Under the pieces are notes generated by a model, which did not search any database, was not told the origin of the DNA, and worked only from the letters and a program-made list of their open reading frames with translations. 64,000 bases of DNA from Bolinopsis microptera. Taxonomy: Eukaryota; Ctenophora; Tentaculata; Lobata; Bolinopsidae. Of this stretch, positions 39,117 through 57,328 are shown piece after piece; positions within the stretch are counted from its first letter, which is position 1, and every line of letters begins with the position of its first letter. The position numbers were made by a program, and so were the translations under genes. The stretch covers positions 16,945,837 to 17,009,836 of the forward strand of contig NC_087073.1 in assembly GCF_026151205.1 (NCBI RefSeq), given 5' to 3'.

Positions 39117-39588
39117 TGTGCCTGTGGGCCAATCAAACACCTCCATATCATTTGAAAATTAAGCACCAGTTTCTTAGACATTGAAATAAAAAGGTGTAAA
39201 CGCGGGTATCAGCAGTCAATCTGAAAAAGCAAACAAATTAAATGAAATGAAATTAAATACGAAACACAAAAGCAGTTAACATAAATATTAATCATATTGT
39301 AATTAATTCTAATGTAATATGTTGATGTAAATTTAAATTTACAATGAAACCACAAAAATGTCATGCTGTAATCGTTAAGATTTAAAAAGTTAAACATTAA
39401 AATATAGCTATAGTCCGTGTATGGACTACTCATGATAATCGCAGAGCTCCACATTATATTATATCCTCGTCTTGTGAGAATAAGGGATTAACATTGTCAA
39501 TATTAGAGCAGCTGATTCACTGAACCAGGGCCCTTATCACCTGGGTAAGTATTATTTATACTATCTCGTCGTGCTCCTATATACTTAT

Positions 39589-41080
39589 ATAGCTATCAGA
39601 AGTTTCATTTATTGGTTTGGATCTATTTCCCGGTGATCTTTACGGTAACTGTAACCAAGTTTATTACTTGTTCTTGATTGTTCTGCTGCGCATTTTAACC
39701 TCACTGCATATCTTAAGTCAGAGTGTCCAATTCTGGTCCCAAGATCTGGACAAGGCACTCAAACTTGGGTCACAGCCTCGTCCTTATCAGATAAGATTGC
39801 TAAAATCTCCCCAGCTGACGGTCTGTGTTGAACATGTGTTTGCCAACAGATTTGAGCAAGATTTCTCAGCTTACCATACAGTGGGTTTGCGTTAGTTGCA
39901 AAGCTGGGCCTGGTACTGTACGTTTCATGGTTCGAAAACATTTCGTGGAGGAATTCGTGCTTCTTAATTTTGGGATTGGTCGATTTTATTTTCTGAAACT
40001 CATCCACCCATACATTTGACTTTTTATGAAGGGCGAGCCAGACAATAAGTCCAAACTGATAAATATCTATTTTACACGGAAAGTTAGCACGTGCAGTAAT
40101 GTTCTGTTTCTGTACGTCACTGTAACTCACACCATCCCTCAGTTGAACAAACCATTCAGGGGGGAGGAAGGAGGGGGTGCTACCCTTCAGTGTGAACACT
40201 TCTCCAGGACTCAAAGCCACTGCAAACCCAAAGTCTCCCAGAATAAAGGATGTTTTCAGACGCGCCTTCACGAATATGTTGTCTGGCTTTATGTCACAGT
40301 GTATGATGATCTTGTGTTGGTTTCCTCTTCTGTTTTTCTGGAATTGTTGTTGTCATGAATTTGCGATACAAATTGATTAATAACGAGTGAGCTTCACTTT
40401 TAGTTTTATTTTTTAGATTAAAATTTTCTGCATCTGCTGTGGAAACACGCAAATCCACAAATTTTAATAAAAACTTCTCCCATGTTTTTTATAGAATTTA
40501 AATTTATAGCAGTCAATAAATTGGAATAAAGATCAACCTTGTGAAGGAAGTCCAGTGCTTTAGCAAGATCACGACAAATCTGCAGGACAGTGGCAGGAGA
40601 TAGGCATTCTTTGTGAGACATGAACTTGGAGAGCGACAATTCGTTGCAGTGGTTCATCATAATGTACCTGACATTATGATGCTTAATATTGACCATAATA
40701 TAAGGTATTGTAACCGTAGCAATACTACCATTTATGATAACTTTGTGGGTCTCAGGATGCACATTTTGGGATAGATCAAGTCCTAAGTTCCATTATTAGA
40801 TATAATATTTGGGCAAAAATATATAAGTGTGTAAGACTTTATGATATTCAATTTGTAGAACCTGCAGCGAGGAGGAGTAATGAGTTGGTCCTCTGTTTTT
40901 TCCCAGATAGCATCTCTCAATCACGCCCACCAAATTCTTGCAACTCTCCGACTTGGAGATGAGTAACTGAGGAACTGCACTAAATCTCGGTTACTGGAAT
41001 CACTGCTAGGTCTACATGATATTGTGCAATCTTTAGTCTGAATGATTTGAGGATGATTAATGTTACAATAAACTAGAAAA
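39589..41080. repeat. Segmental duplication, copy 1
   Basis: Matches 42119-43612 at an offset of 2530 bases. It is almost identical over the first 1.2 kb, then increasingly interrupted by substitutions and small indels toward 41080. It contains copies of the last three exons of the receptor kinase gene. Confidence 0.97.
39759..41015 (-). pseudogene. Duplicated kinase exons (partial copy)
   Basis: Copy of the receptor kinase exons for the catalytic half. The terminal exon (40337-39759) keeps HCDIKPDN, GDFGFA, PPEW and the C-terminal HRPSAGEIL. The exon before it (40782-40538) is also open. The third copied exon (about 40860-41010) has lost one base in its QFLQLL region and gained one in an A-run, so its frame is broken. 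It lacks all N-terminal exons and has no start of its own. It differs from the intact copy by a few residues (for example Lys-Ser-Asn against Lys-Ser-Asp). It could be a pseudogene, or an alternative 3' end of the upstream gene. Kinase identity is certain; expression is not. Confidence 0.8.
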
Positions 41081-41590: not shown

Positions 41591-42120
41591 ATATTTGACC
41601 AAAACCCATAATCATGGGTAGAGTGGACCGCTGCCAGTGTCTCTCTTTCCCAAACAAAAGGAAATGATATTAATTTGATTGACCGTTCTCAAATGCAAAA
41701 TGATACCGAGAATGAAATCGGTCGCTCGCTTTTCCCATTCATTTACAATTGTACCTAATAGATTAAGAAGAACTACCCAAAGGCAGCTGTACTCGGCAAT
41801 GAAGATTCAATAAACTTCAGCTTGTTCAATAAGTAATAACTACCACCCTTGTCCCTTACCCCGAAATACTAGGTATCGACCCGAACGCAACCCAAATTCA
41901 AAGAGATTTTTACAGCATCTGATTGATGTAATCAATCGAAACTTATTTATACAATTCGTAAGCCGTGAATGAATGGGAAAAGCGAGCGACCGATTTCATT
42001 CTCGGTATCATTTTGCATTTGAGAACGGTCAATCAAATTAATATCATTTCCTTTTGTTTGGGAAAGAGAGACACTGGCAGCGGTCCACTCTACCCATGAT
42101 TATGGGTTTTGGTCAAATAT
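41591..42120. mobile_element. 530-bp palindromic element with about 152-bp inverted repeats
   Basis: Starts ATATTTGACCAAAACCCATA and ends with its reverse complement; the arms run about 152 bases (41591-41743 and 41969-42120) and appear identical. The interior of about 225 bases is non-coding. TA at both ends fits a Tc1/mariner-like target. It lies between the two kinase copies, and its right end touches the first base of copy 2. A fragment of the same end recurs at 58597-58622. Confidence 0.93.
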
Positions 42121-43612
42121 AGCTATCAGAAGTTTCATTTATTGGTTTGGATCTATTTCCCGGTGATCTTTACGGTAACTGTAACCAAGTTTATTACTTG
42201 TTTTTGATTGTTCTGCTGCGCATTTTAACCTCACTGCATATCTTAAGTCAGAGTGTCCAATTCTGGTCCCAAGATCTGGACAAGGCACTCAAACTTGGGT
42301 CACAGCCTCGTCCGTATCAGATAAGATTGCTAAAATCTCCCCAGCTGACGGTCTGTGTTGAACATGTGTTTGCCAACAGATTTGAGCAAGATTTCTCAGC
42401 TTACCATACAGTGGGTTTGCGTTAGTTGCAAAGCTGGGCCTGGTACTGTACGTTTCATGGTTCGAAAACATTTCGTGGAGGAATTCGTGCTTCTTAATTT
42501 TGGGATTGGTCGATTTTATTTTCTGAAACTCATCCACCCATACATCTGACTTTTTATGAAGGGCGAGCCAGACAATAAGTCCAAACTGATAAATATCTAT
42601 TTTACACGGAAAGTTAGCACGTGCAGTAATGTTCTGTTTCTGTACGTCACTGTAACTCACACCATCCCTCAGTTGAACAAACCATTCAGGGGGGAGGAAG
42701 GAGGGGGTGCTACCCTTCAGTGTGAACACTTCTCCAGGACTCAAAGCCACTGCAAACCCAAAGTCTCCCAGAATAAAGGATGTTTTCAGACGCGCCTTCA
42801 CGAATATGTTGTCTGGCTTTATGTCACAGTGTATGATGATCTTGTGTTGGTTTCCTCTTCTGTTCTTCTGGAATTGTTGTTGTCATGAATTTGCGATACA
42901 AATTGATTAATAACGAGTGAGCTTCACTTTTAGTTTTATTTGTTAGATTAAAATTTTCTGCATCTGCTGTGGAAACACGCAAATCCACAAATTTTAATAA
43001 AAACTTCTTCCATGTTTTTTATAGAATTTAAATTTATAGCAGTCAATAAATTGGAATAAAGATCAACCTTGTGAAGGAAGTCCAGTGCTTTAGCAAGATC
43101 ACGACAAATCTGCAGGACAGTGGCAGGAGATAGGCATTCTTTGTGAGACATGAACTTGGAGAGCGACAATTCGTTGCAGTGGTTCATCATAATGTACCTG
43201 ACATTATGATGCTTAATATTGACCATAATATAAGGTATTGTAACCGTAGCAATACTACCATTTATGATAACTTTGTGGGTCTCAGGATGCACATTTTGGG
43301 ATAGATCAAGTCCTAAGTTCCATTATTAGATATAATATTTGGGCAAAAATATATAAGTGTGTAAGACTTTATGATATTCAATTTGTAGAACCTGCAGCGA
43401 GGAGGAGTAATGAGTTGGTCCTCTGTTTTTCCCAGATAGCATCTCTCAATCACGCCCACCAAATTCTTGCAAATCTCCGACTTGGAGATGAGTAACTGGA
43501 GGAACTGCACTAAGTCTCGGTTACTGGAATCACTGGCTGGTCCGTACACTGATATTATGTTGCAATCTTTAGCTCTGAGATGGAGATATGAGGATGGAGT
43601 TATGTTACACTA
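42119..43612. repeat. Segmental duplication, copy 2
   Basis: The copy that belongs to the intact kinase gene; see copy 1 at 39589-41080. Its low-coordinate edge coincides with the end of the palindromic element. Confidence 0.97.
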
Positions 43613-46600
43613 AACTAGTAAACCAGACTAGACTTAACCAGACAACTCGGAGACCTGGGAATTTAAAGCGATCGTCATGTCAGCGATCAAATATTGAAAC
43701 ATTTTATGGAAAAAAATAACATATTTATGATTCCCAAGAACATACTGTGATTTGTTGAAGATGGAGTTGATGACTTTAAGCTCCATCCCATGTTGCTCAC
43801 ACTGGGATTCTGAGAAGATTTTTAGAACCACATGCTGAGATCTGACGAACTTACCTCCATAAAACCCATTCATGACTCCAAACCTCGCTTTCAGGATTAT
43901 CTGATGAAAAATGGGGAAATGGTATAAGCTTTTGTCATGATCAGAATGGGAAAGTTTGCTTGCAATGCACATCCACAGCTAAACTAACTAGAGTCTTTTA
44001 AAATACCTCTCTGTCGGAGAGTAGATTAGCAGTTTTCTCCGACTTAATTGCAAATCCTGCTAAACCTAGAGCCTCTATTTTGTTCCATTCGATATAGGAG
44101 TTCATTTTTCCGAGGTTGCCACTTTTCTTCACTGAAGCAAAAAAATCATCATAAACTATAATTATGATAAAATTATGATAAAATTAAAAATGAAAAGTGG
44201 CGTATGGAAGATCGTGGAATTTTTATTTAAAGGTTGCAGGACTTCATTTTCACCAGTTTCATTGTCAACGCATTGTTACTTGCAAAATTATCTCAAGCCA
44301 CGCAAACCATATGACCGGGCATTTCTGGCTGAGATCGAACCAGAAATTTTAGTAAATGATTGACTGGGTAAAAAATAAAAACTTACAATTTCGTCCATAC
44401 TTTACAGCACAATAGCGTCCGAGTCCGACAGCAATAATTAAAAAGACGATCACTGCTGATCCTGCTAAAGGTTTGATAAACCTGAAGTTCAGACCAATTT
44501 CAACTTGACAGTTCTTTTCCAGATCCCCGTAAAATTCGTTCAGAGCTGAAAAAATATTTTTGTACGGTCAATCGAGTATGTTGCAGTACGATCAGAAATT
44601 CAGTTGATTGAAATATGCTATAGTTGATTTGGTAAACAAAGCAACAGCCCAACTTATAACTATATGAGTTGACCAGCCTCGCAGCCTTTGTTCTACCCTA
44701 TTTCAGCTATCAGAACAACAATGAAAGATTACATTTTCTAGTCAGACTTGTGAAACGATCGGACAAATCCAAGATTGTTCCTCATTGGCACGTGCCCGAA
44801 TTTAATTCTTCCGATTGATTTCTTGCAAGTGCTGCGTTAGCATTTCAATTATGAAGCATTACGTCAAAGCCTGGAGGGGTTGTTCAAAACATATAAGTGA
44901 TACGATCGAAAAGCAGGAGCTTTCAAAATACTTGTGTAAATCTTCTTCAGCTTACATCAAAGAGACTCGACATAACATTGCAGCTTTAACATCGAGACTA
45001 CATTTTCTTCACTTTTTATTGTTCGTGTTCTCAAGTAGTGCCCAGAGCTGTTGCGTAAATGCAAATTCAGTGCAGCGGATTCTCTATCGACTATTGGTAC
45101 AGAATAAAATTCAAAAAGCATAAATTGTACTTTGTTTTTTTCGTTGCAGTTTATAATGCTACCACAGCCGCCGTTGATTGTGACAGACCTTGTTTAAACG
45201 GACATTGTTATTATATCTTATTGGACTTCATTTGGACAGACATTATTTGGACGAATGGACGCTGGAGGTGTTAATAATGTCCGTTTAAACAAAGTCTTTC
45301 CATTCAATGTAATTTTCAATGGTTGGCAAGATATAGGTAATAATTTTGGTGTGTTTAAAAGCTTGCTGTATAGTGGACGAAAAGACACGAAACCGAATTT
45401 GGGTGATTCGCAAATTTTAGGTTCACCGATATGCATCTGATAGGTGCGATAGGCGACCGATATAAAACGGAAAACCTAAAATCCGGCTGTATTGGTCAGT
45501 GGAGGGAGCTGGATCAAAATTTCCTCATCCTTGTTTTGTAATATAAAAAAGTAAGAAGCAGTTTGACAAGAAATTTAGGCTAAGGGTTTATACTTGACGT
45601 TACTTCGCGTAGAGCGACTCTGTCTTGCTACTTAAGGCATAAGTTGGTTTATAAAGAAGCGAGCGTAATACTTCCTTGTGTTTCAATTGTAATATTGATT
45701 CAGTTGGGGAAGGGTATTTGCACTCATTAAAAAAAACGTGCATTAAAATATCTGGTTTTACAGTACCAATCTAAGAATTTAATTCTTATCTGCGAGCCTA
45801 TCGGTAAACCGGATTTTCTGTATAACTTTTTTAAACGATATCTCAATGACGGAAATACCTGCGCAGTTTCTACGTCTTGACACTATGTCACCATGTCTAT
45901 GATAGCAGTTGCAGGATGCTAGACGCTGTATGTAAGGCCTCACTGCATCACACTGAGCTTCTCCGCATGACTTTTTATCTTTATAATCTTGGTAGCATGA
46001 TGATAGTATCTCGTTTGTTGTGGAATTCATGTAGTGCTTTCCACCGTCACACTCTGCGAGGTCATTATTTTGCTTTATAACTTAACAAACGGAAATACTA
46101 TTAGTATTACTGCAATCACGAACAAATAACGCACAAATTGCAGTAATAATATTCCATATAAATAATTTACTGAGTACTATACTAATAAACTAATAAGCTA
46201 ATATTAGATAGGCGCTTTGAGATCGGAGTAAAGTAAAGTATAACAATTGAATCGTTAGTTTTCTTTGTTTCGATTGTAGATAGTAATAGTATATTAAATA
46301 GCTGAAATATTCCAGTTCATAATTGAAATTCATTGTAAGGGTATAAGCGACAGAAATACAATTTCTACGTCAGAACATTAAAATGAGTTAGATCATGACT
46401 ATGACAATATGATGATTGATGAAGTTATGTTTTACCATTTTGGAAGCAGTTCCTTGCAAATTTTTGGGTTTTCTGGCAAGTCTCCCTCGTTTTAGGGTTT
46501 TCACATTTGCATGGCAAAATATTTGCCAAGTTTTGTAAGCTTCCAGTTTCTGGATCCTGCAAAACAAAACTCGTGAGCGAAGGATTAGTTTTAAAAGCTT

Positions 46601-48911
46601 TCTTTATGGCATACATCCAATCTAAATGTTACTTTTCATGAAGGAATCAATGGAGCTTGCAAATGTAAAGATATCCAAGAAAAAATATTATAATATTATA
46701 AAGGGTTTAACCCGGCATGTCCTAAGTTATAATTTTTGTCCCAGATGCTAGTCTTTTCGGCTTTCGCTCATCCATACCCTAAAGCATACTCTGGACAAAC
46801 ACATCCAAGCTATATGACCCTGATTTTGACGTAAATCTGTCTTTTAAAACCATCGCCAAAAACCTATTCTTATTAAGTTATAACATCCACTCAGAGATTC
46901 AGTGATACAGATTGAGAAAGTTAAGGCACAATTTTACCACATGAGCCCTTGTCGCTGCTGTGTAGCAACCGAGAGAGCAACGCAAGTTTCCATTTTCTGA
47001 GCAATTCTTGTAAGAATGGGCAGCTTTACCTCCCGGAGCGTACACTTCTAGTCTTGTTGTGTCACAAACTGGAAGAAAACTCTTTGAAATTAATATTGAT
47101 AAATATTCGCTAGAGTAAAGCACCATGTATCATGTCAATAAATAGTGGCGTGGTGTAAGTTTTGTGCATTCACTGCGATCAAAATTAAAGTTAGAATAAA
47201 ATGGCTCACAGCATCTTCCGTTTCCAGGACAACTGAGGCAGTTTCTAGATGCGTCCTCACTGTAGGTCCTTGTCTTGCAATGATTACAAGATTTGCTTGT
47301 AGTATCATAGTGTTCACCAGCAACACAGTCAGATATTTCCTCTGAAACATAGTCAAGTGAACCTTCTGGCTGCGCTTGGCATTTAATAATGTAGAATGTA
47401 ATTTAACACCAAAGCTTTCGTCAGTATTTTGTATGATAAAAATCAGATTTCTGCTTGGCTTTTAATATTGTATTTGTGATTGTAAACTTTGACTTGATCA
47501 ATATGTCGCATGTTCACTGTTCGGATTTGTAAAACGATTCACTCGTTAATATGCAATTCTACAGGGATGTTATTGACGGCAGCATGGCTACTTCTCCTTC
47601 CTCTCTCAGCAGCGTCACTCAGCTGCCACAACAAGAAATGTAAAGGAACCACAAACTACACTAACATCCTGATACCCTGTGACAACTCAGTTAACAAATG
47701 TAGCTACAACAAGACTGGATACCCAGTTTGTGTTCCCAATTCCGAAGGAACCGGTGTGAACTGTAAGGGCAGATTCAAGTGTAGATATGATCAGGACTCT
47801 GGGGAAGCGTACTGTTCGAGCAGTTCGGCCTCCTGGCAGTGTTACGATCAGAAGTGTAACGGGACGAGTCAGTTTCAGGAGATGAGTCTGAAGTGTGACA
47901 ACAAGGACAACTACTGCTCCCACAACGGCACAGGGTTCCCAGCCTGCCGAGCTACCAAGTGGGGCGGCAATGGAGTGAGCTGTAATGGCGAGGATTGTAG
48001 TGTTGAGGAGGGTACTGGTGAGGGCTACTGTGTCTCCGCTTCTAAAACTCTGTATTATATCTGGGGAGGTGTAGTTGGAGGGGCAGCCCTTATGTCAGCT
48101 TTACTTTACTTGATCATCAAGTGTGTTAGGAGAGCAGAGCATCAACACGAGGGGACAGGTACAGAGACTGAGAGACTTGTCCCGGACAAGACTGATTACA
48201 GACGGAGATTTAGTGGGAGTGAACGACCAAGAGGAAAGTGGGAGGTTCGTGCCGGGGAAGCATCGGAAACAGACCATATTTATGCTAATGTTTAGTGGAT
48301 ATAAAATCTTACAATATAAGGGCCTGAATAATTTTGAATAAGTGAACTTGTAAAATTGCTTTGATAAGAAATAAAACGTTAAAAATTGGGTTTTATATAG
48401 CTAATAGAAAGCCCGTGGTCACAGGGAGGAAAGTAATAGTATTCTGTGGTAGTGAGTTTTTATTGCATCAAAAAAAATCCGTCACAACCGAAGATATGGC
48501 CGATTAAAATGTAGCTCGCACTGAACACAACGTAATTACCACAAAACCGATCAGAATGTCGCTCGCAAATCGTGCGCTTTTGAACACCGTTACCATGGTT
48601 ACTATGCAGCTTCCTATTTCTCATCCAATTTGCACGTAGGCTTTTGTACAACAATTACCATGGTTGCTATGCAACTTCCATTTCTCATAAAATTTTCACG
48701 TGGACAGAACATAATTCTTTGAATTATAATAATGATAAATTATAATAACATAATTCTTTGAATTATAATAATGATATAGCATAACAATCGTTGAATTTAA
48801 CTTTGATCAACATCCAAAAACAAAAGAACCTTTTTTAAAAGAACAAACAAACCTTGTCGAGTAACTATGATGAAAGTGGCAACGAGGTGAGCTAATATCC
48901 AATAGTTCATC
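42289..48911 (-). CDS. Receptor-like protein kinase with Cys-rich ectodomain
   Basis: Exons in order: 48911-48855 (signal peptide MNYWILAHLVATFIIVTRQ), 47374-47174, 47068-46938, 46556-46436, 46053-45859 (four Cys-rich ectodomain exons; the first has CNHCKTRTYSEDASRNCLSC, like GCC2/GCC3 or TNFR-type repeats), 44545-44387 (helix AGSAVIVFLIIAVGLG), 44131-44007, 43900-43746 (FGVMNGFYGG loop, VVLKIF with the ATP Lys, helix-C GMELKVIN), 43574-43392, 43312-43068 and 42867-42289 (HCDIKPDN, GDFGFA, PPEW, HRPSAGEIL). All catalytic residues are present, so it should be active. HCDIKPDN looks more like Ser/Thr or TKL kinases than typical receptor tyrosine kinases. Most joins keep phase; the one between 43392 and 43312 does not with the sites I found. 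The subfamily is not recognised. Confidence 0.88.
45185..45297. repeat. Inverted repeat in a kinase intron
   Basis: TTGTTTAAACGGACATTGTT at 45189 is mirrored by AATAATGTCCGTTTAAACAA at 45273, with about 60 bases between. It lies in the intron before the membrane-helix exon and could form a hairpin or be a small MITE. Confidence 0.75.
47567..48295 (+). CDS. Small type I membrane protein with two Cys-rich modules and a YxN tail
   Basis: Uninterrupted 242-residue frame. The in-frame ATG at 47510 is less likely than 47567, where a clean signal peptide starts (MLLTAAWLLLLPLSAAS). Two homologous modules follow, each with the pattern C-x4-C, C-x5-C, C, C, C (first: SCHNKKCKGTTN...CDNSVNKCSYNKTGYPVC; second: QCYDQKCNGTSQ...CDNKDNYCSHNGTGFPAC), with Asn glycosylation sites. 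Then comes one helix (GGVVGGAALMSALLYLII), a basic stop-transfer and a 55-residue tail ending ETDHIYANV. YANV fits a Grb2-type SH2 site (YxN) if phosphorylated. AATAAA lies at 48371. The gene sits wholly inside intron 1 of the receptor kinase gene on the other strand. Family unknown; probably a cell-surface adhesion or signalling protein. Confidence 0.78.
   Translation: MLLTAAWLLLLPLSAASLSCHNKKCKGTTNYTNILIPCDNSVNKCSYNKTGYPVCVPNSEGTGVNCKGRFKCRYDQDSGEAYCSSSSASWQCYDQKCNGTSQFQEMSLKCDNKDNYCSHNGTGFPACRATKWGGNGVSCNGEDCSVEEGTGEGYCVSASKTLYYIWGGVVGGAALMSALLYLIIKCVRRAEHQHEGTGTETERLVPDKTDYRRRFSGSERPRGKWEVRAGEASETDHIYANV
48368..48376 (+). terminator. Probable polyadenylation signal of the nested gene
   Basis: AAATAAAAC lies about 75 bases after the stop codon of the 47567-48295 frame, a sensible distance for a 3' UTR. 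Confidence 0.5.
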
Positions 48912-49600
48912 TTAACGATTCCAGAAAAACGGTGACATCAAGTTAATACACTTTCATGTAGCGTAACTCGAATATCTGATATCAAACATAACATGTTAAT
49001 ACTGTGGAATGATGAGTTTATCAACTTGAAAGATGTACTCTAACTTTAAGGCTCTTACAATCTTACAATCACAGGTGCCCATAAAGTAAATACCTGTAAA
49101 ATTGTGACCCTCCAGCTGCACATATAATCACTGATTATAATTAGTAATTGTCGGAGCTGTTATATTAGTGTTCACTGTTTAGCACTGACTCATGTGATTA
49201 TTACGAAGGCAGGTGCAAATCAAGCTTGGTAAAGGATCTACCGTCCGCGACTGTAGCAACTTGTCATTACATCCCTTTATCAAGTTATCAAAAGGGATTT
49301 GCTTTGGCAGGGTGCTGTGGATAGAGTTCACCTCAGTGGAACTGATCGATCCCAAAATCCAAACTATAGAAGAGTCCAATATCCAATATGAGAACCTGAA
49401 TATATTCTATTGCTATTGACTACCCTCACACTACGGACCTTACTTCTTTCCTCAGTCACACTCTGTTCATTTCTTCTTCCCGTATGGGTATTGGGTTCAC
49501 ATATAATAGTCCTCGAATGTATTGCACGTAAAAAAAATGTGCGATTGATTGAAGCATTAGTTACTTAGTTAGAATCTTTGAACTTTATGCTTTTGATAAC
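48912..49600. other. 5' flank of the kinase gene
   Basis: Should hold the kinase promoter; none is recognised. At 49179-49419 both strands are open (minus STEVNSIHSTLPKQIPFDNL, plus overlapping) in DNA of more coding-like composition, perhaps a retroelement scrap. I do not assign it. Confidence 0.35.
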
Positions 49601-49614
49601 TGTCACTGATATTG

Positions 49615-49638
49615 CCCCCCCCCCCCCCCCCCCCCCCC
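49615..49638. repeat. Poly-C tract, 24 bases
   Basis: Uninterrupted run of C followed by ACCCTCC. It is similar in size to the poly-G run at 36232-36253 and prone to assembly length error. A shorter G-run lies near 50591. Confidence 0.95.
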
Positions 49639-49884
49639 ACCCTCCAGAGGGCAGCCTGTAGTCTGTAAACGGTATAATCACACCGAATTTAATACTGAAG
49701 CATAACCTTGCTATGCCACACTTGTAATGCAGTTGCAGTCCCCACCACAGTTCGGGAAAACGAACCCCTAAAAGGTGCTGAACTCCACGAACTAGACAAT
49801 AAGTAACCGTACTGGTTATGACATGACATATTTTAATACTTTCCACACTACTATATAACAAATAATTTGAGGAAACGATGTAAC

Positions 49885-49965
49885 AGAGTCGATATATTTT
49901 AATGTTGCCATGGGGTGGCAAGTCCCCAATCCCCATACATCGTGGTCCGGTAGTTTCATTGCGTC
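49885..49965. repeat. Dispersed repeat, inverted relative to 32196-32277
   Basis: Contains TTTTAATGTTGCCATGGGGT, GGCAAGTCCCC and TAGTTTCATTGCGTCCTAATA, the reverse complement of the 32.2 kb sequence with scattered differences. Confidence 0.85.
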
Positions 49966-50089
49966 CTAATATATGTGATTCTGGGATTTCGATTGGACAA
50001 TGCTGCATTGCTGGGAGCTGGTTGACTAATATCTGTTCATAATACGTGTCATTCGTCAGAAACAACAATCACCAACAAGAATGGGATGC

Positions 50090-52050
50090 AGTCGGGCTTC
50101 GTAGATCACGGTACAACAAAACATCGAATCATCCAACATGAGCAGAATGTATCTGGAAACAAAGACTTACTGTACCAGTATAAATGCTCGTATTGTATTT
50201 CACGTTACAAAATACAAAGGACCAGGTTGATTAATAATCTAGGCTAATTAACGTGTCAGAACCAGATTATTGCGCTGCAGCAGTGGGCGACAAAGGGGCT
50301 CACTGATCACTCACCGGGGCGCGGCAGGTGGTCACTAGCAAAACAAGGGTGCAACAAAATAATAAGCATGCGTGAATATACGACCTGTAAACTGTAAGTA
50401 AAGGTTTACTGCACATGATAGCATCTCACACTATTCAAGATCGTAACTCATGAGAACATTTTCTGTTGAACGGAAAATGAACTACCAGCTATCAAGATGA
50501 AGAAGCGTCTCATGAATGAGAGGACTCTACGATCGTGGACGAATCTGAAAATTACATCTCATAGAAGATTCTACAAAAGAAGGATAAAGAGGGGGGGGGG
50601 ATGCCAATTTGTAATAACAATATGTGGTATGTATATATGGTATATGCTGATTGCTGAAGTAGTCTAAATCAGAACTATGTCCCTTAGTTATTGTGTCCTG
50701 TAGTTTTGCCCATATGAATAACCACAAGGATACGGTAAAGAAAGTCACTTAGGGCGCCAAGACAGGCACTAAGGGAGCCAAGTCGGGTTTCTTTATCTAT
50801 TGTAAACAGTCTGCACTATGCAATGGTGACTGTATAAAAGGAGGTGCATACTTCAAGTCTACAAAAAGTACTCCGCTAGTTTAAAGTCGGTTAGTTTTTC
50901 AAATAATTATATTATTATTATATCGGGTCTCAATAAGAGGTCTCGACTGCATAGGTATCAAACCTTGGCAAATGGCAATTATCGGTAATTTTCCTCTGGC
51001 CCGGAGTCAGCTGACCCTAGGGACCATAAACCGATAAAGGCGTAGAGAATGTGTGTATCTACAAAAGTGGTTGTTTTTACAAGAGGCAGGGCTTGCAGTG
51101 CAAGGGAACAAAAACAGGAGAAACAATCACAAAGTGTATATTATATAACTTATTATTATTATTATTATATTATTATAACTTTTATTTAGCAAACATTGTA
51201 CTATTTCAATGCGACAAGTTAGACACACCTCTCGATTTTATAGCCTTACATAAATTATGCGGGTTTTAACACGACAAAAATGATTCTCAAAAGTGTAGAA
51301 TTTAGGACGACCGACTGTGAGGTAAAGTTCTGATGATAATTGCAAATTGTAATTTTATAATATGTATACAGAGTACAGACTAGCGGACTTACCATCCATA
51401 ATTATGTAATATTGATTTGGGGGATAGGTAAACAAATTTAAAGCTAGGCAAAGCTTAAGCTATTAATTGGTATAAATAAAAAGTGTATAAGTAAGTAATC
51501 AGGATCCAGGACCGGGGTCCGGGAAGCTCAATAAACGTAATTTATTCCTTATCACTTAAATGGTTGGAGAAACATAAAGCCGACAGAATTAAGACCGGAG
51601 TTAAACTTGTACCTTAATCCCAAATCGATGTTATTATGTAGTCACGTTTGACTGTTCAACTAAACGGCTATAAGATTATTTCCAGCCTCCGTTGAGTTAA
51701 GATTAAGATCTACATTATATTTATAGGTGCAGTTTAGATAAACATTATTTTGTTCGGAAGCGAATAGGTCTGAGATATGATTCTCAAAGTAATATTATGT
51801 TATGTACCCAACAGAGATACCTGGATGTATAATTAGATTCTAGAAAATTCAGGACATGGTACGAAGGATAGGAAAAAAATTAAAAACCAATCGGATTAAT
51901 TGATGATTTAGTCTCTCAATTAAGAGTTAAAGTTCAGCAACTGATATTCGACACGGGTCACTGAACTGTCGGGTGAGCAGCTTTTGGTTGTGGTTCCCAA
52001 TTACCTTTTATAAAATAAGCAGAATTTTGGTAGAAAAACAAAAGATAGAG
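50090..52050. other. No gene recognised
   Basis: AT-rich DNA with (TTA)n near 51150-51175. No coding feature is supported on either strand. Confidence 0.5.
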
Positions 52051-52081
52051 CATAAATGCAATGGTTCGTTTCAGCAAGGTT

Positions 52082-52370
52082 ATAAGAAACTGAGCAGGAG
52101 TAGTAGAAACTGAGCAGGAGTATTAGAAACTGAGCAGGAATATTAGTTAGTTAGCAGTAAGTGAGGCTATTATAGAAACTGAGCAGGAGTATTAGAAACT
52201 GAGCAGGAATATTAGAAACTGAGCAGGAGTATTAGAAACTGAACAGGAATATTAGAAACTGAGCAGGAATATTAGAAACTGAGCAGGAATATTAGAAACT
52301 GAGCAGGAATATTAGAAACTGAGCAGGAATATTAGAAACTGAGCAGGAATATTAGTAAGTTACTACTAAT
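52082..52370. repeat. 20-bp minisatellite (ATTAGAAACTGAGCAGGAAT)n
   Basis: About 13 copies of ATTAGAAACTGAGCAGGAAT or the GAGT variant, interrupted once by a segment with TTAGTTAGTTAGCAGTAAG that recurs at the end of the array. Confidence 0.95.
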
Positions 52371-52399
52371 TCATAATTAGGAGTATTAGTTAGTTAGCA

Positions 52400-53880
52400 A
52401 TAAGTCATAATTAGGGGTGGTGGAGATAGTGTGTGTACTTATATTCTACTACTATATAGCATATAGGTATTCTATTATATAGAATGTAGTCTCAAGAGAA
52501 GCTAAGTCTGTGAGCAAAATTCAATACGAGTTTTGTCTGTTTTCTGGGAAAGCTTTCAATTCCTCGGGAACAAACAAAAAACCGTAAAATACTGGACGAG
52601 AGTTGTACAATACTGAAACATTCGACAACCATGCGCTTGTTGTGTTGTTATATTGTTATGTTGTGTGTTGTTGTGTTGTTGTGTGGTGAGACCCATGTAT
52701 TACACAATGACTACACAAGTATTAGCACTGCTGGAATAAGGTTCAAACAACTTTCGAATCGTTACCATTCTACGGGAACAATGGATCAAAGATTTCTAAT
52801 GTGCTGAGTATGCTGTACTTTATGAGTTTACAGTATAAACGATTCTTTGTACAGAGGTGGTGGGGTGCAGGGGGCCGGGGAGTCAATTTAACATTTTGTC
52901 TTTGGGATAAATGAAAATAAAATCGATTTCGCCTAGATACAAATTTTCATTGTCCTTCTTGAATTGGAAAAGGGCTGGCGAAGAAATACGTTAGAAATGA
53001 GCCTGCAGGAGGTTCGGTTTTTCAAATCATCAAGATTATGAGCTACAATTTCAAACCAGGCTAGCAGGCTACTAAATATTGACACCAAAAACCACATCAT
53101 CGAGTTTAAGTGCGTAGTTGTTCCATCGGAATCCTGACACTATTTCTCTTTTTGAACGGTGAGTAGATAATCTCAGTTTGGCCGTATAATTACACATATT
53201 AATTAGTAGAGGAGATGAACAGAGATGAGGATCTCGTATTATGAATTTAACCGCTACCACTGTTGAGTACCTGAGTAATGGTTGGTTCAGTAGTTGGGTA
53301 GTTTAAATGATTTTATAAATAGTTCGATCCACGACAAGGCACGCTAGTATATGGTATAGCTGAGACTAAGAGAGTTAACTGATGATTTAGATACATGATT
53401 TCGGATAATGATGAATCACTCTACACTCGACTTTCACGTGATTTATTTAAACACGTTCTGTAAATAGCCCTGAGGGGTTATTCAAAGCTATAATCCTCCA
53501 CTGATCTTACCGCAAACCTAACCCTAACCCGATCCATAACTGAAGTGTTTGCTTAAACCCTAACCCCAACGAGAAATTAGACACAATTTCTTATATGTAG
53601 TTATATTGTAATGGCACGTGATCAAAACAGTTTTTCGCCGATAATTCACCAGGGGAGCATCTTATCATGTGGGGTGATTCGGAATCAGCGTTCACCAATC
53701 TCGAGAACGGCCGTTCGAGGGTGAGATAGAACTTGAAATAAAATATTTGAACAGAAGTGATGAACATCCATGTGTTGATTGTCTAAATGTGCTTGACAAG
53801 GAATTACACCTGGTATCACTATAATCACCAAATACAAGGGGTATTATCTGCTCCAAAAGTACTAAAGTAAAAAAGATGCT
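52400..53880. other. No gene recognised; dispersed repeat
   Basis: AT-rich. At 53510-53700 there is a block related to 61620-61780 (GTGATTCGGAATCAGCG, CACGTGATC, and CCTAAC-type words). The run CCTAACCCTAACCC near 53517 is too short to call telomeric. Confidence 0.6.
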
Positions 53881-55708: not shown

Positions 55709-57328
55709 ATGCTTCTGTTTTTTGGTATCGTAACTCTGCTGTTCACACCGTATGATGGAGCCACAGGGAGTTTAAATAAGATAAAAGCACTGAAGTTTTC
55801 TAGTAACAGCTACATCCGGTACAGTCCTGACATGAGTCCTCTCACCAACATCTTCTCGATCTGTGGGTGGGTAAAGGACATCGGGTCATCATCATACCGG
55901 ACAATCCTTATGTATTATAATAGTATTGCTGAGCTGATAATATTTACCGATGGAAGTCACATAGCTCTCTTTGGATCATATCAACACCTACAGAGCAAGT
56001 TCTCTGTAGCGAAAGGCCATTGGCATCATGTCTGTAGTACGTGGAGTCTAGAGTCTAGGTCTCACAGTTATTACGTGAATGGAGTGCTGTTAGGGTCACG
56101 ACAAACAACAGCAGGAAGGACACTGAAAACGGGTGGAGAGCTCACTCTAGGAATGTACGGTAGTAGTTATCCTTTTGATGGAGAGATGATGTATCTCAAT
56201 GTGTACGCTAAAGAGCTGTCCTCTAGCGAAATAGCGAGTATAGTGGAGAAGGGAATGTGTAATGTAGAGACAGATAAGCACGAGTCTTCTCGGGTCATCA
56301 AATGGGAGGAACTGGTAAAGCTAAGAAGGACCGGAACTATCACTGACGTATACATAGACGAGTGCCTTGTCCAACTTGGATCATCATTTGATCAAAAGGT
56401 AGCAAAGCTGGAAGGAGCAGAGAGGAAACTGAACGAAACAGCTGATGAGTTGACGGAGACACGACAAAAGTTGAATGCGACTATTGTTGAGCTGACAGAG
56501 ACCCGAGAACAACTGAATTCGACACTTGATGGCTTGACGGAGACCCGACAAGAATTGAATGCGACCCTGGACGAGCTCAAGGGGTTACTGGCCAAACAAA
56601 ACAATACTTGGGACTGGAATATCTTCCTATCAGAACAATTCCTGAACGAGACCTTCACAACGGAACACGCTCAACTGCTTCGCTCAAGCTGGGAAGATGC
56701 GGCAGGTAAAAATACGGTGTAAAAGTTTTTTTTGAATGGCGAAAATAACAGCTTTTATCGTTTATAAATCGTTTACTCGGTATGACTATTAGTTCCAAAT
56801 TTTTGGTTATAAATTCAACAACATTCTGCTTACAGTTACATAACATTTACAAATCTCAAATCTCAATTATTTCAGAGAGACTCGTTGGATTCACTCTCAC
56901 AGATAAGCTGATCAAACTATTGGATTTCTTCGACCCCGTTGAAAACAGGCCGTGGTCAATGTTGTACTCTGAAAACTATCTCAACCAAGTTTTTACCCGG
57001 GAGATGGCAAGGAGATTGACAAACATTTGGGATGGGATAAGTGGTCATTAGAAATCTTTATATTTTATCAAATTCGTTTTACTTTCACTAATTTACTTAT
57101 AATAGGATATAGAGCAGGCTGAAACCTACCTCACAAAGGGGAAACACTAACAAGAGTCGAACTCTCCGCTAGATATTTAAACACTGATCGGGTCATTACA
57201 AATGTATACAATACTAATAGTTTGTAAATTCTTTTATTTCAGAAAAGTTAGTAGGAGTAAAGATGACAGAGGAGGTGATTCAGTTGCTCAAATATGTTAC
57301 CGATAATTCCAATTGTGGGAATTCATAA
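55709..57328 (+). CDS. Secreted LamG/pentraxin-like protein with coiled coil and duplicated C-terminal module
   Basis: Three exons: 55709-56705, 56876-57043 and 57243-57328, phases consistent, 416 residues. Residues 1-20 are a signal peptide. Residues about 25-190 form a concanavalin A-like/LamG fold with pentraxin-type marks: FSICGWV, GHWHHVCSTW and LNVYAKELSSSEI. About residues 230-290 carry 14-residue heptad repeats of the type LTETRQKLNATIVE with Asn glycosylation sites, likely a coiled coil for oligomers. The end holds two related roughly 50-residue modules; exon 2 opens ERLVGFTLTDKLIKLLDFF and exon 3 EKLVGVKMTEEVIQLLKYV, each following a WEDAAG or WDGISG. The donor of exon 2 (GTCATT) is weak. 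Expected to act outside the cell, perhaps in glycan or microbe binding. The C-terminal module is not recognised. Confidence 0.82.

Follow-up and report, generated by a model that had tools for sequence, protein, structure and literature searches.

Lysosomal and endocytic cargo receptors of the LAMP type carry YxxPhi or acidic dileucine signals in their tails. EGF-like domains have six cysteines, with a CxC between the fourth and fifth cysteine positions. The STMC6/Shisa-like adaptors (WBP1, VOPP1, WBP1L, CYYR1 and TMEM92; Pfam WBP-1) have an ectodomain with a six-Cys pattern, and the STMC6 layout, as outlined in PMC11399591, consists of a signal peptide, a Cys-rich domain, one helix and PPxY. 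As for gene arrangement in ctenophores, PMC8527503 counts 14,265 protein-coding genes in Hormiphora and reports 2357 genes nested in introns.

We analyzed 64,000 nucleotides of the ctenophore Bolinopsis microptera (NC_087073.1, positions 16,945,837 to 17,009,836), hereafter the window. A gene encoding a Cys-rich membrane protein lies there inside an intron of another gene, like the nested genes described in PMC8527503; as far as tested, only the identity of the pair differs from what that account describes. The protein belongs to a family that shares with the STMC6/Shisa-like adaptors a signal peptide, a Cys-rich ectodomain and a single helix, as well as PPxY in some tails, but differs from them by its eight-Cys modules, which are tandem in some members, and by the lack of PPxY in the window protein. 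The family module resembles EGF-like domains in being Cys-rich and in a GxGxxC ending at its sixth Cys, whereas the window modules are devoid of CxC and the EGF_3 profile match in the family falls below its cut-off. A C-terminal YxxPhi, found in 3 of 13 family tails, in one of them as GYQNF, is reminiscent of LAMP-type receptors; in contrast, no sequence match of the window protein's ectodomain to such receptors was found in Pfam or the PDB, and in the window tail the Tyr follows Ile instead of Gly.

A cysteine-rich membrane protein predicted from an intronless frame

The plus strand of the window holds a 261-aa ATG frame at 47510-48295, open throughout; in 500 dinucleotide shuffles of positions 46000-50000, the longest ATG frame was 186 aa, with a mean of 84. 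The start codon is probably Met20 (47567), because the hydrophobic signal begins right there. On the evidence of the open frame and of homology to family members, the likely coding sequence would thus be 47567-48295, or 242 aa, and the first 19 codons would be upstream sequence. Hydropathy delineates a signal peptide region at 47567-47623, MLLTAAWLLLLPLSAASLS, and a membrane helix at 48062-48127, the highest 19-residue hydropathy of the protein being 2.09, at residues 188-206. Two modules of eight cysteines each are located at 47624-47815 and 47840-48031, with Cys spacings of 4,12,6,9,10,5,10 and 4,12,6,9,11,4,10, respectively. They are 41% identical, all eight cysteines are common to both, and their consensus is C-x4-C-x12-C-x6-C-x9-C-x10/11-C-x4/5-C-x10-C.

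The tail after the helix comprises a basic stretch, then ETERLV (48164-48181), which a motif scan identifies as a variant acidic dileucine-type signal (ExxxLV), and finally a C-terminal YANV (48281-48292), which is compatible with both YxxPhi (sorting) and YxN (SH2). An AATAAA polyadenylation-type hexamer is present at 48370-48375, 75 bases past the stop. Asn glycosylation sequons are found at residues 49, 67, 117 and 139 of the 261-aa frame (P0001), and an additional one, at residue 16, precedes Met20. From these features we infer that the gene product is a type I membrane glycoprotein, which would be expressed, glycosylated and disulphide-bonded. A preliminary description of the locus, made from the sequence alone, had reported an intronless gene, a signal peptide, two homologous Cys-rich modules, a membrane helix and a YANV end; all of these are borne out here, the coding part lying in one open frame.

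Two more features of the window were spotted by eye. The first is an intronless 337-aa frame at 55709-56722, which begins like a signal peptide, resembles LamG/pentraxin and ends in a tail rich in repeats. The second is a tandem-like tract at 52090-52360, with units gaaactgagcaggaatatta.

The host kinase gene

The host gene is encoded on the minus strand. By joining frames, with exon borders chosen by hand from the sequence, we obtained exon 1 (48853-48910, encoding a signal peptide and also based on a scan of hydrophobic starts), a Cys-rich exon 2 (47174-47374), exon 3 (46938-47068), exon 4 (46436-46556) and exon 5 (45859-46053). With GT/AG borders, these five exons form one open frame of 235 residues, which places the nested gene inside a predicted intron 1 (47375-48852, 1478 nt). 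This intron encloses the whole nested frame plus its AATAAA. Exon 1 is the least certain, since further hydrophobic ATG starts exist on the minus strand on both sides of the chosen one; all those listed in a scan of 47370-53000 lie at 48522 or above, beyond the AATAAA of the nested gene, so that the nesting stands for any of them. The position given in the preliminary description, between exons 1 and 2 of a receptor kinase and on the opposite strand, is thus the one we obtain.

A kinase C-lobe exon containing HCDIKPDN and DFG is located at 42292-42843, as judged by sequence reading, Pfam and genome matches. Using a hand-joined query in which exons may be missing, Pfam assigns the kinase part to Pkinase (1e-23) with a better score than to PK_Tyr_Ser-Thr (1.1e-15); the joined ectodomain has no Pfam match at E<=1. 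The catalytic loop, HCDIKPDN, is one that we take to be of the Ser/Thr type.

The kinase exon block is tandemly duplicated (39587-41000 and 42117-43600, spacing 2530), and the host region therefore contains two copies of the C-lobe exon. The first 300 nt of the two blocks are 99% identical, as are the proteins encoded by the kinase exon. Between both kinase copies lies an inverted repeat (41591-41746 and 41965-42120), with arms of 156 nt that are 99% complementary and 218 nt apart; it resembles a small mobile element.

A family of eight-cysteine modules

We searched the B. microptera genome with three queries: the whole window protein, a two-module stretch of a relative and a single-module relative. 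At least 19 distinct family loci, window included, have E<=0.01 in one or more of these searches. The whole-protein query yielded at least 34 matches at E<=10, the best outside the window at 3.8e-20; C6:12652826 (E 0.057, two stops) and C4:13534153 (E 0.55) were set aside from the family count. Judged by sequence similarity, the window gene is one member of an unnamed family expanded in its genome, not an isolated oddity.

The coding part lies in a single open frame at 13 of the 19 loci; five others look intron-split and one has an in-frame stop. Among the 13 single-frame loci, a C11 member (135 aa) has no visible membrane helix and a C3 member has no ATG ahead of the signal in that frame. These counts bear on the question of a retrogene origin from an intron-bearing parent, as does the module tree. 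Resolution in this tree is low, with 10 open branches among the 28 inner ones, and the two window modules are joined at 63/79 only. The member at C5:4090.5k (L010 1041-1330) carries an in-frame TAG at the module start and is a probable pseudogene.

Module number varies widely, with 11 and 7 modules in two tandem C7 genes, two in the window gene and one in each of the other members read. The pattern C-x4-C-x(8-16)-C-x6-C-x(9-10)-C-x(10-13)-C-x(4-10)-C-x(8-11)-C describes both window modules and 20 more modules of four other genes, although it was derived from the very sequences on which it was tried. Departures occur: the fourth Cys of C8.6645 is separated from the fifth by 8 residues, and an additional Cys is present near the seventh in some members. 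The five module pairs compared between the two tandem C7 genes, out of seven possible ones, have dN/dS ratios of 0.10 (with a saturated dS of 3.0), 0.16, 0.27, 0.56 and 0.18. On these C7 pairs the family is under purifying selection, which we count as support for our preferred explanation, given below. For the window gene against a C7 module, dN/dS was 0.26 at a saturated dS of 2.7 and the value is not usable; the comparison of the window gene's own two modules likewise gave no usable value.

A relative with up to 11 tandem modules, together with the four sequons downstream of the likely start of the window protein, would suit an adhesion or structural surface protein, that is, an extracellular linker whose tail serves for turnover only. 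Considering the small size of the nine aligned single-module members (135-298 aa), we regard such a role as distinctly improbable.

Comparison with described domains and folds

The Cys pattern had been described as matching no known family, and profile searches agree with this statement: the window protein matches 0 Pfam families at E<=10, and PDB searches by sequence, single and profile, returned nothing below E 0.4. When ten family members were run against Pfam at E<=1, ten families came up, all of them weakly and under their cut-offs; cut-offs were compared for nine of the ten members, the first one having no family at all. The best of these weak matches, PIF3 (E 0.0025, 18.4 bits for a cut-off of 22.2), is found in one member only. 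EGF_3 (E 0.012, 16.3 bits for a cut-off of 28.5) is likewise matched by one of ten members and not by the window protein, whose modules, with eight Cys and no CxC in either, do not follow an EGF-like Cys pattern.

Two AlphaFold models built from the two window modules alone have mean pLDDT values of 59 and 55, and Foldseek returned nothing below E 1.9 with either; we therefore claim no fold. For one of these low-confidence models, the top two fold matches, both non-significant, were merozoite surface protein 1, which is presumably EGF-like, and a domain of the EGF-like type. For the second model, no EGF-type match was present among its 17 fold matches. Outside the B. microptera genome, prokaryote genome contigs and viral contigs were each scanned once, and no relatives appeared. 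A word search of the literature, covering titles and abstract starts, brought up no paper on such a family among those listed, from which we do not conclude that none exists.

The WBP-1 profile was matched by one of the ten members (E 0.007, 17.5 bits for a gathering cut-off of 28.1) and not by the window protein; the match spans the module end, helix and tail start (residues 71-128) rather than the whole module. This match, and a layout in which a signal peptide precedes a Cys-rich domain and a single helix, with PPxY in 5 of 13 tails, would fit transmembrane adaptors of the Shisa/STMC6 kind: the ectodomain would bind other membrane proteins while the tail steers them, and NEDD4-type ligases would be recruited by the members with PPxY, a motif that the window member would have lost or never had. 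We consider this unlikely, in view of a match below the curated cut-off in a single member, of eight Cys per module, of the tandem modules in some members and of a window protein without PPxY.

Sorting signals in family tails

Tails could be compared for 13 of the 19 loci, after exclusion of the helix-less member, of four that were not assembled across introns and of one with a stop. PPxY is found in 5 of 13 tails, versus a mean of 1.4 in shuffled tails; [DE]xxxL[LI] in 4 (shuffled, 0.29), or in 6 when extended to [DE]xxxL[LIV] (shuffled, 0.46); and C-terminal YxxPhi in 3 (shuffled, 0.11). In none of these four cases did any of 2000 shuffles score as high. At least one of PPxY, [DE]xxxL[LI] and C-terminal YxxPhi is present in 10 of 13 tails, compared to a mean of 1.8 and a maximum of 6 in 5000 shuffles, and absent from 3 of 13. 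When a single tail is kept per close group, the count is 7 of 10 (0.62 expected from shuffles), and 6 of 9 (again 0.62) once the window tail is removed, with 0 of 5000 shuffles as high each time; since the motif classes were picked after the tails had been viewed, these counts are not clean probabilities, and the enrichment is suggestive rather than a test. YxxPhi at any place in the tail (8 of 13 versus 5.2; 135 of 2000 shuffles as high) is hardly above chance. A Tyr occurs within the last five residues of 7 of 13 tails (3.5 in shuffles; 57 of 2000 as high). The window tail has an AP-sorting motif (YxxPhi or [DE]xxxL[LI]) by virtue of YANV; it contains neither PPxY nor a strict [DE]xxxL[LI], and ExxxLV and YANV are its only signals.

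The preliminary description had taken YANV for a YxN-type SH2 site, so that the protein would be a surface signalling receptor whose phosphorylated tail (pYANV) recruits Grb2-type SH2 adaptors. YANV does include YxN, and so does the GYQNF end of the C13 locus member. Across the family, however, YxN is at chance level (2 of 13 tails versus 1.8 in shuffles) and missing from 11 of 13 tails, the ITIM motif [SIVL]xYxx[ILV] occurs in 0 of 13 tails versus 0.95 in shuffles, YANV fits YxxPhi too, and the catalytic loop of the host kinase reads as Ser/Thr-type. Signalling through SH2 docking is therefore improbable, and the enrichment of sorting signals leads us to prefer trafficking. The proposal that both nested and host proteins are surface signalling molecules thus holds for the surface character of the nested protein and is not supported for its SH2 signalling site.

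Our preferred explanation, to which we assign a probability of about one half, is that the window gene encodes an endocytic receptor or trafficking adaptor sorted by AP adaptors, and that it became nested by chance. Family proteins would present 1 to 11 copies of the disulphide-rich eight-Cys module, followed by the membrane helix and the tail. The most likely role of the modules would be to capture a ligand or a partner protein outside the cell; the sorting signals of the tail, in the window protein ExxxLV and the C-terminal YxxPhi, would then take the protein and its bound cargo into clathrin-coated vesicles, from which both may go on to endosomes. Proteins that signal or adhere carry sorting signals too, and this tempers an endocytic interpretation.

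Sequence upstream of the start codon

A possible splice or trans-splice acceptor AG is located at 47563-47564, shortly before the likely start of the window gene; it had been noted before the family was surveyed for such sites. Among the 16 of 19 members surveyed, with starts hand-chosen as the Met before the signal, all 16 have a YAG within 20 bases before the start, versus 7.0 in shuffles and with 0 of 1000 as high. The more demanding combination of YAG and a pyrimidine-rich stretch is absent from the window gene but found in 10 of 16 members, versus 3.5 in shuffles, of which 1 of 1000 scored as high. YAG before the starts would be equally expected from 5' introns. A search for the terminal part of the spliced leader of Hormiphora, allowing up to 2 mismatches, gave 24 matches versus 21 for the reversed pattern, and that leader was therefore not found here.

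Does the nesting have a function?

We may also hypothesize that host and nested genes form a functional pair, in which the kinase gene is tuned by antisense transcripts from the nested gene or both proteins cooperate, a link that the preliminary description had thought conceivable. The two genes are on opposite strands, the nested frame lies entirely within the inferred transcribed region of the host, and antisense transcription competition is raised as a possible control in the account of PMC8527503. Yet host paralogues do not share the arrangement. Host ectodomain exons match one locus on C2 (16.80 Mb) and two on C3 (19.15 and 19.58 Mb), all three of which are also matched, at E<=1e-5, by the kinase exon, whose other matches at this level are its two copies in the window. 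At these three paralogues, no module gene was found among ATG frames of at least 90 residues in stretches that extend to about 2.8-3.8 kb upstream of exon 2, and the nearest family member genome-wide, among the matches listed, is about 0.7 Mb off. Nesting is also common in Hormiphora, going by the figures in PMC8527503. We therefore view a functional pair as very improbable.

Ten more loci match the host ectodomain only (E 5e-4 to 0.1), and by coordinates all listed family members are more than 1 Mb away from these. Kinase-type motifs near other family members were looked for by pattern at 13 loci, and none was found; this is weak evidence, as a single strict pattern was used. The two C3 paralogues (L030 at 19.15 Mb and L031 at 19.58 Mb), about 430 kb apart and near-identical by eye, look like the product of a recent duplication, or else of duplicated assembly.

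The simplest explanation is that the nesting arose by chance, and the arrangement would then have no function of its own. A compact single-exon gene may have entered intron 1 of the kinase gene by chance insertion or duplication. The nesting as such looks ordinary for a ctenophore-type genome.

Implications

A broader possibility, tentative and to our mind rather doubtful, is that the disulphide module has not been described before and has expanded in ctenophores, borne by endocytic receptors with 1-11 modules and interchangeable trafficking codes (dileucine, YxxPhi and NEDD4-type PPxY). Compact single-exon members would be able to land in introns of other genes, and members would share a splice or trans-splice acceptor before the start. 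If this is true, Cys-rich surface receptors built by a ctenophore would plug into the common sorting machinery of animals, namely AP complexes and, via PPxY, NEDD4-type ligases. The family would then illustrate how new ectodomains can be joined to old tails, and would offer testable modules for asking how comb jellies sense material or take it up.
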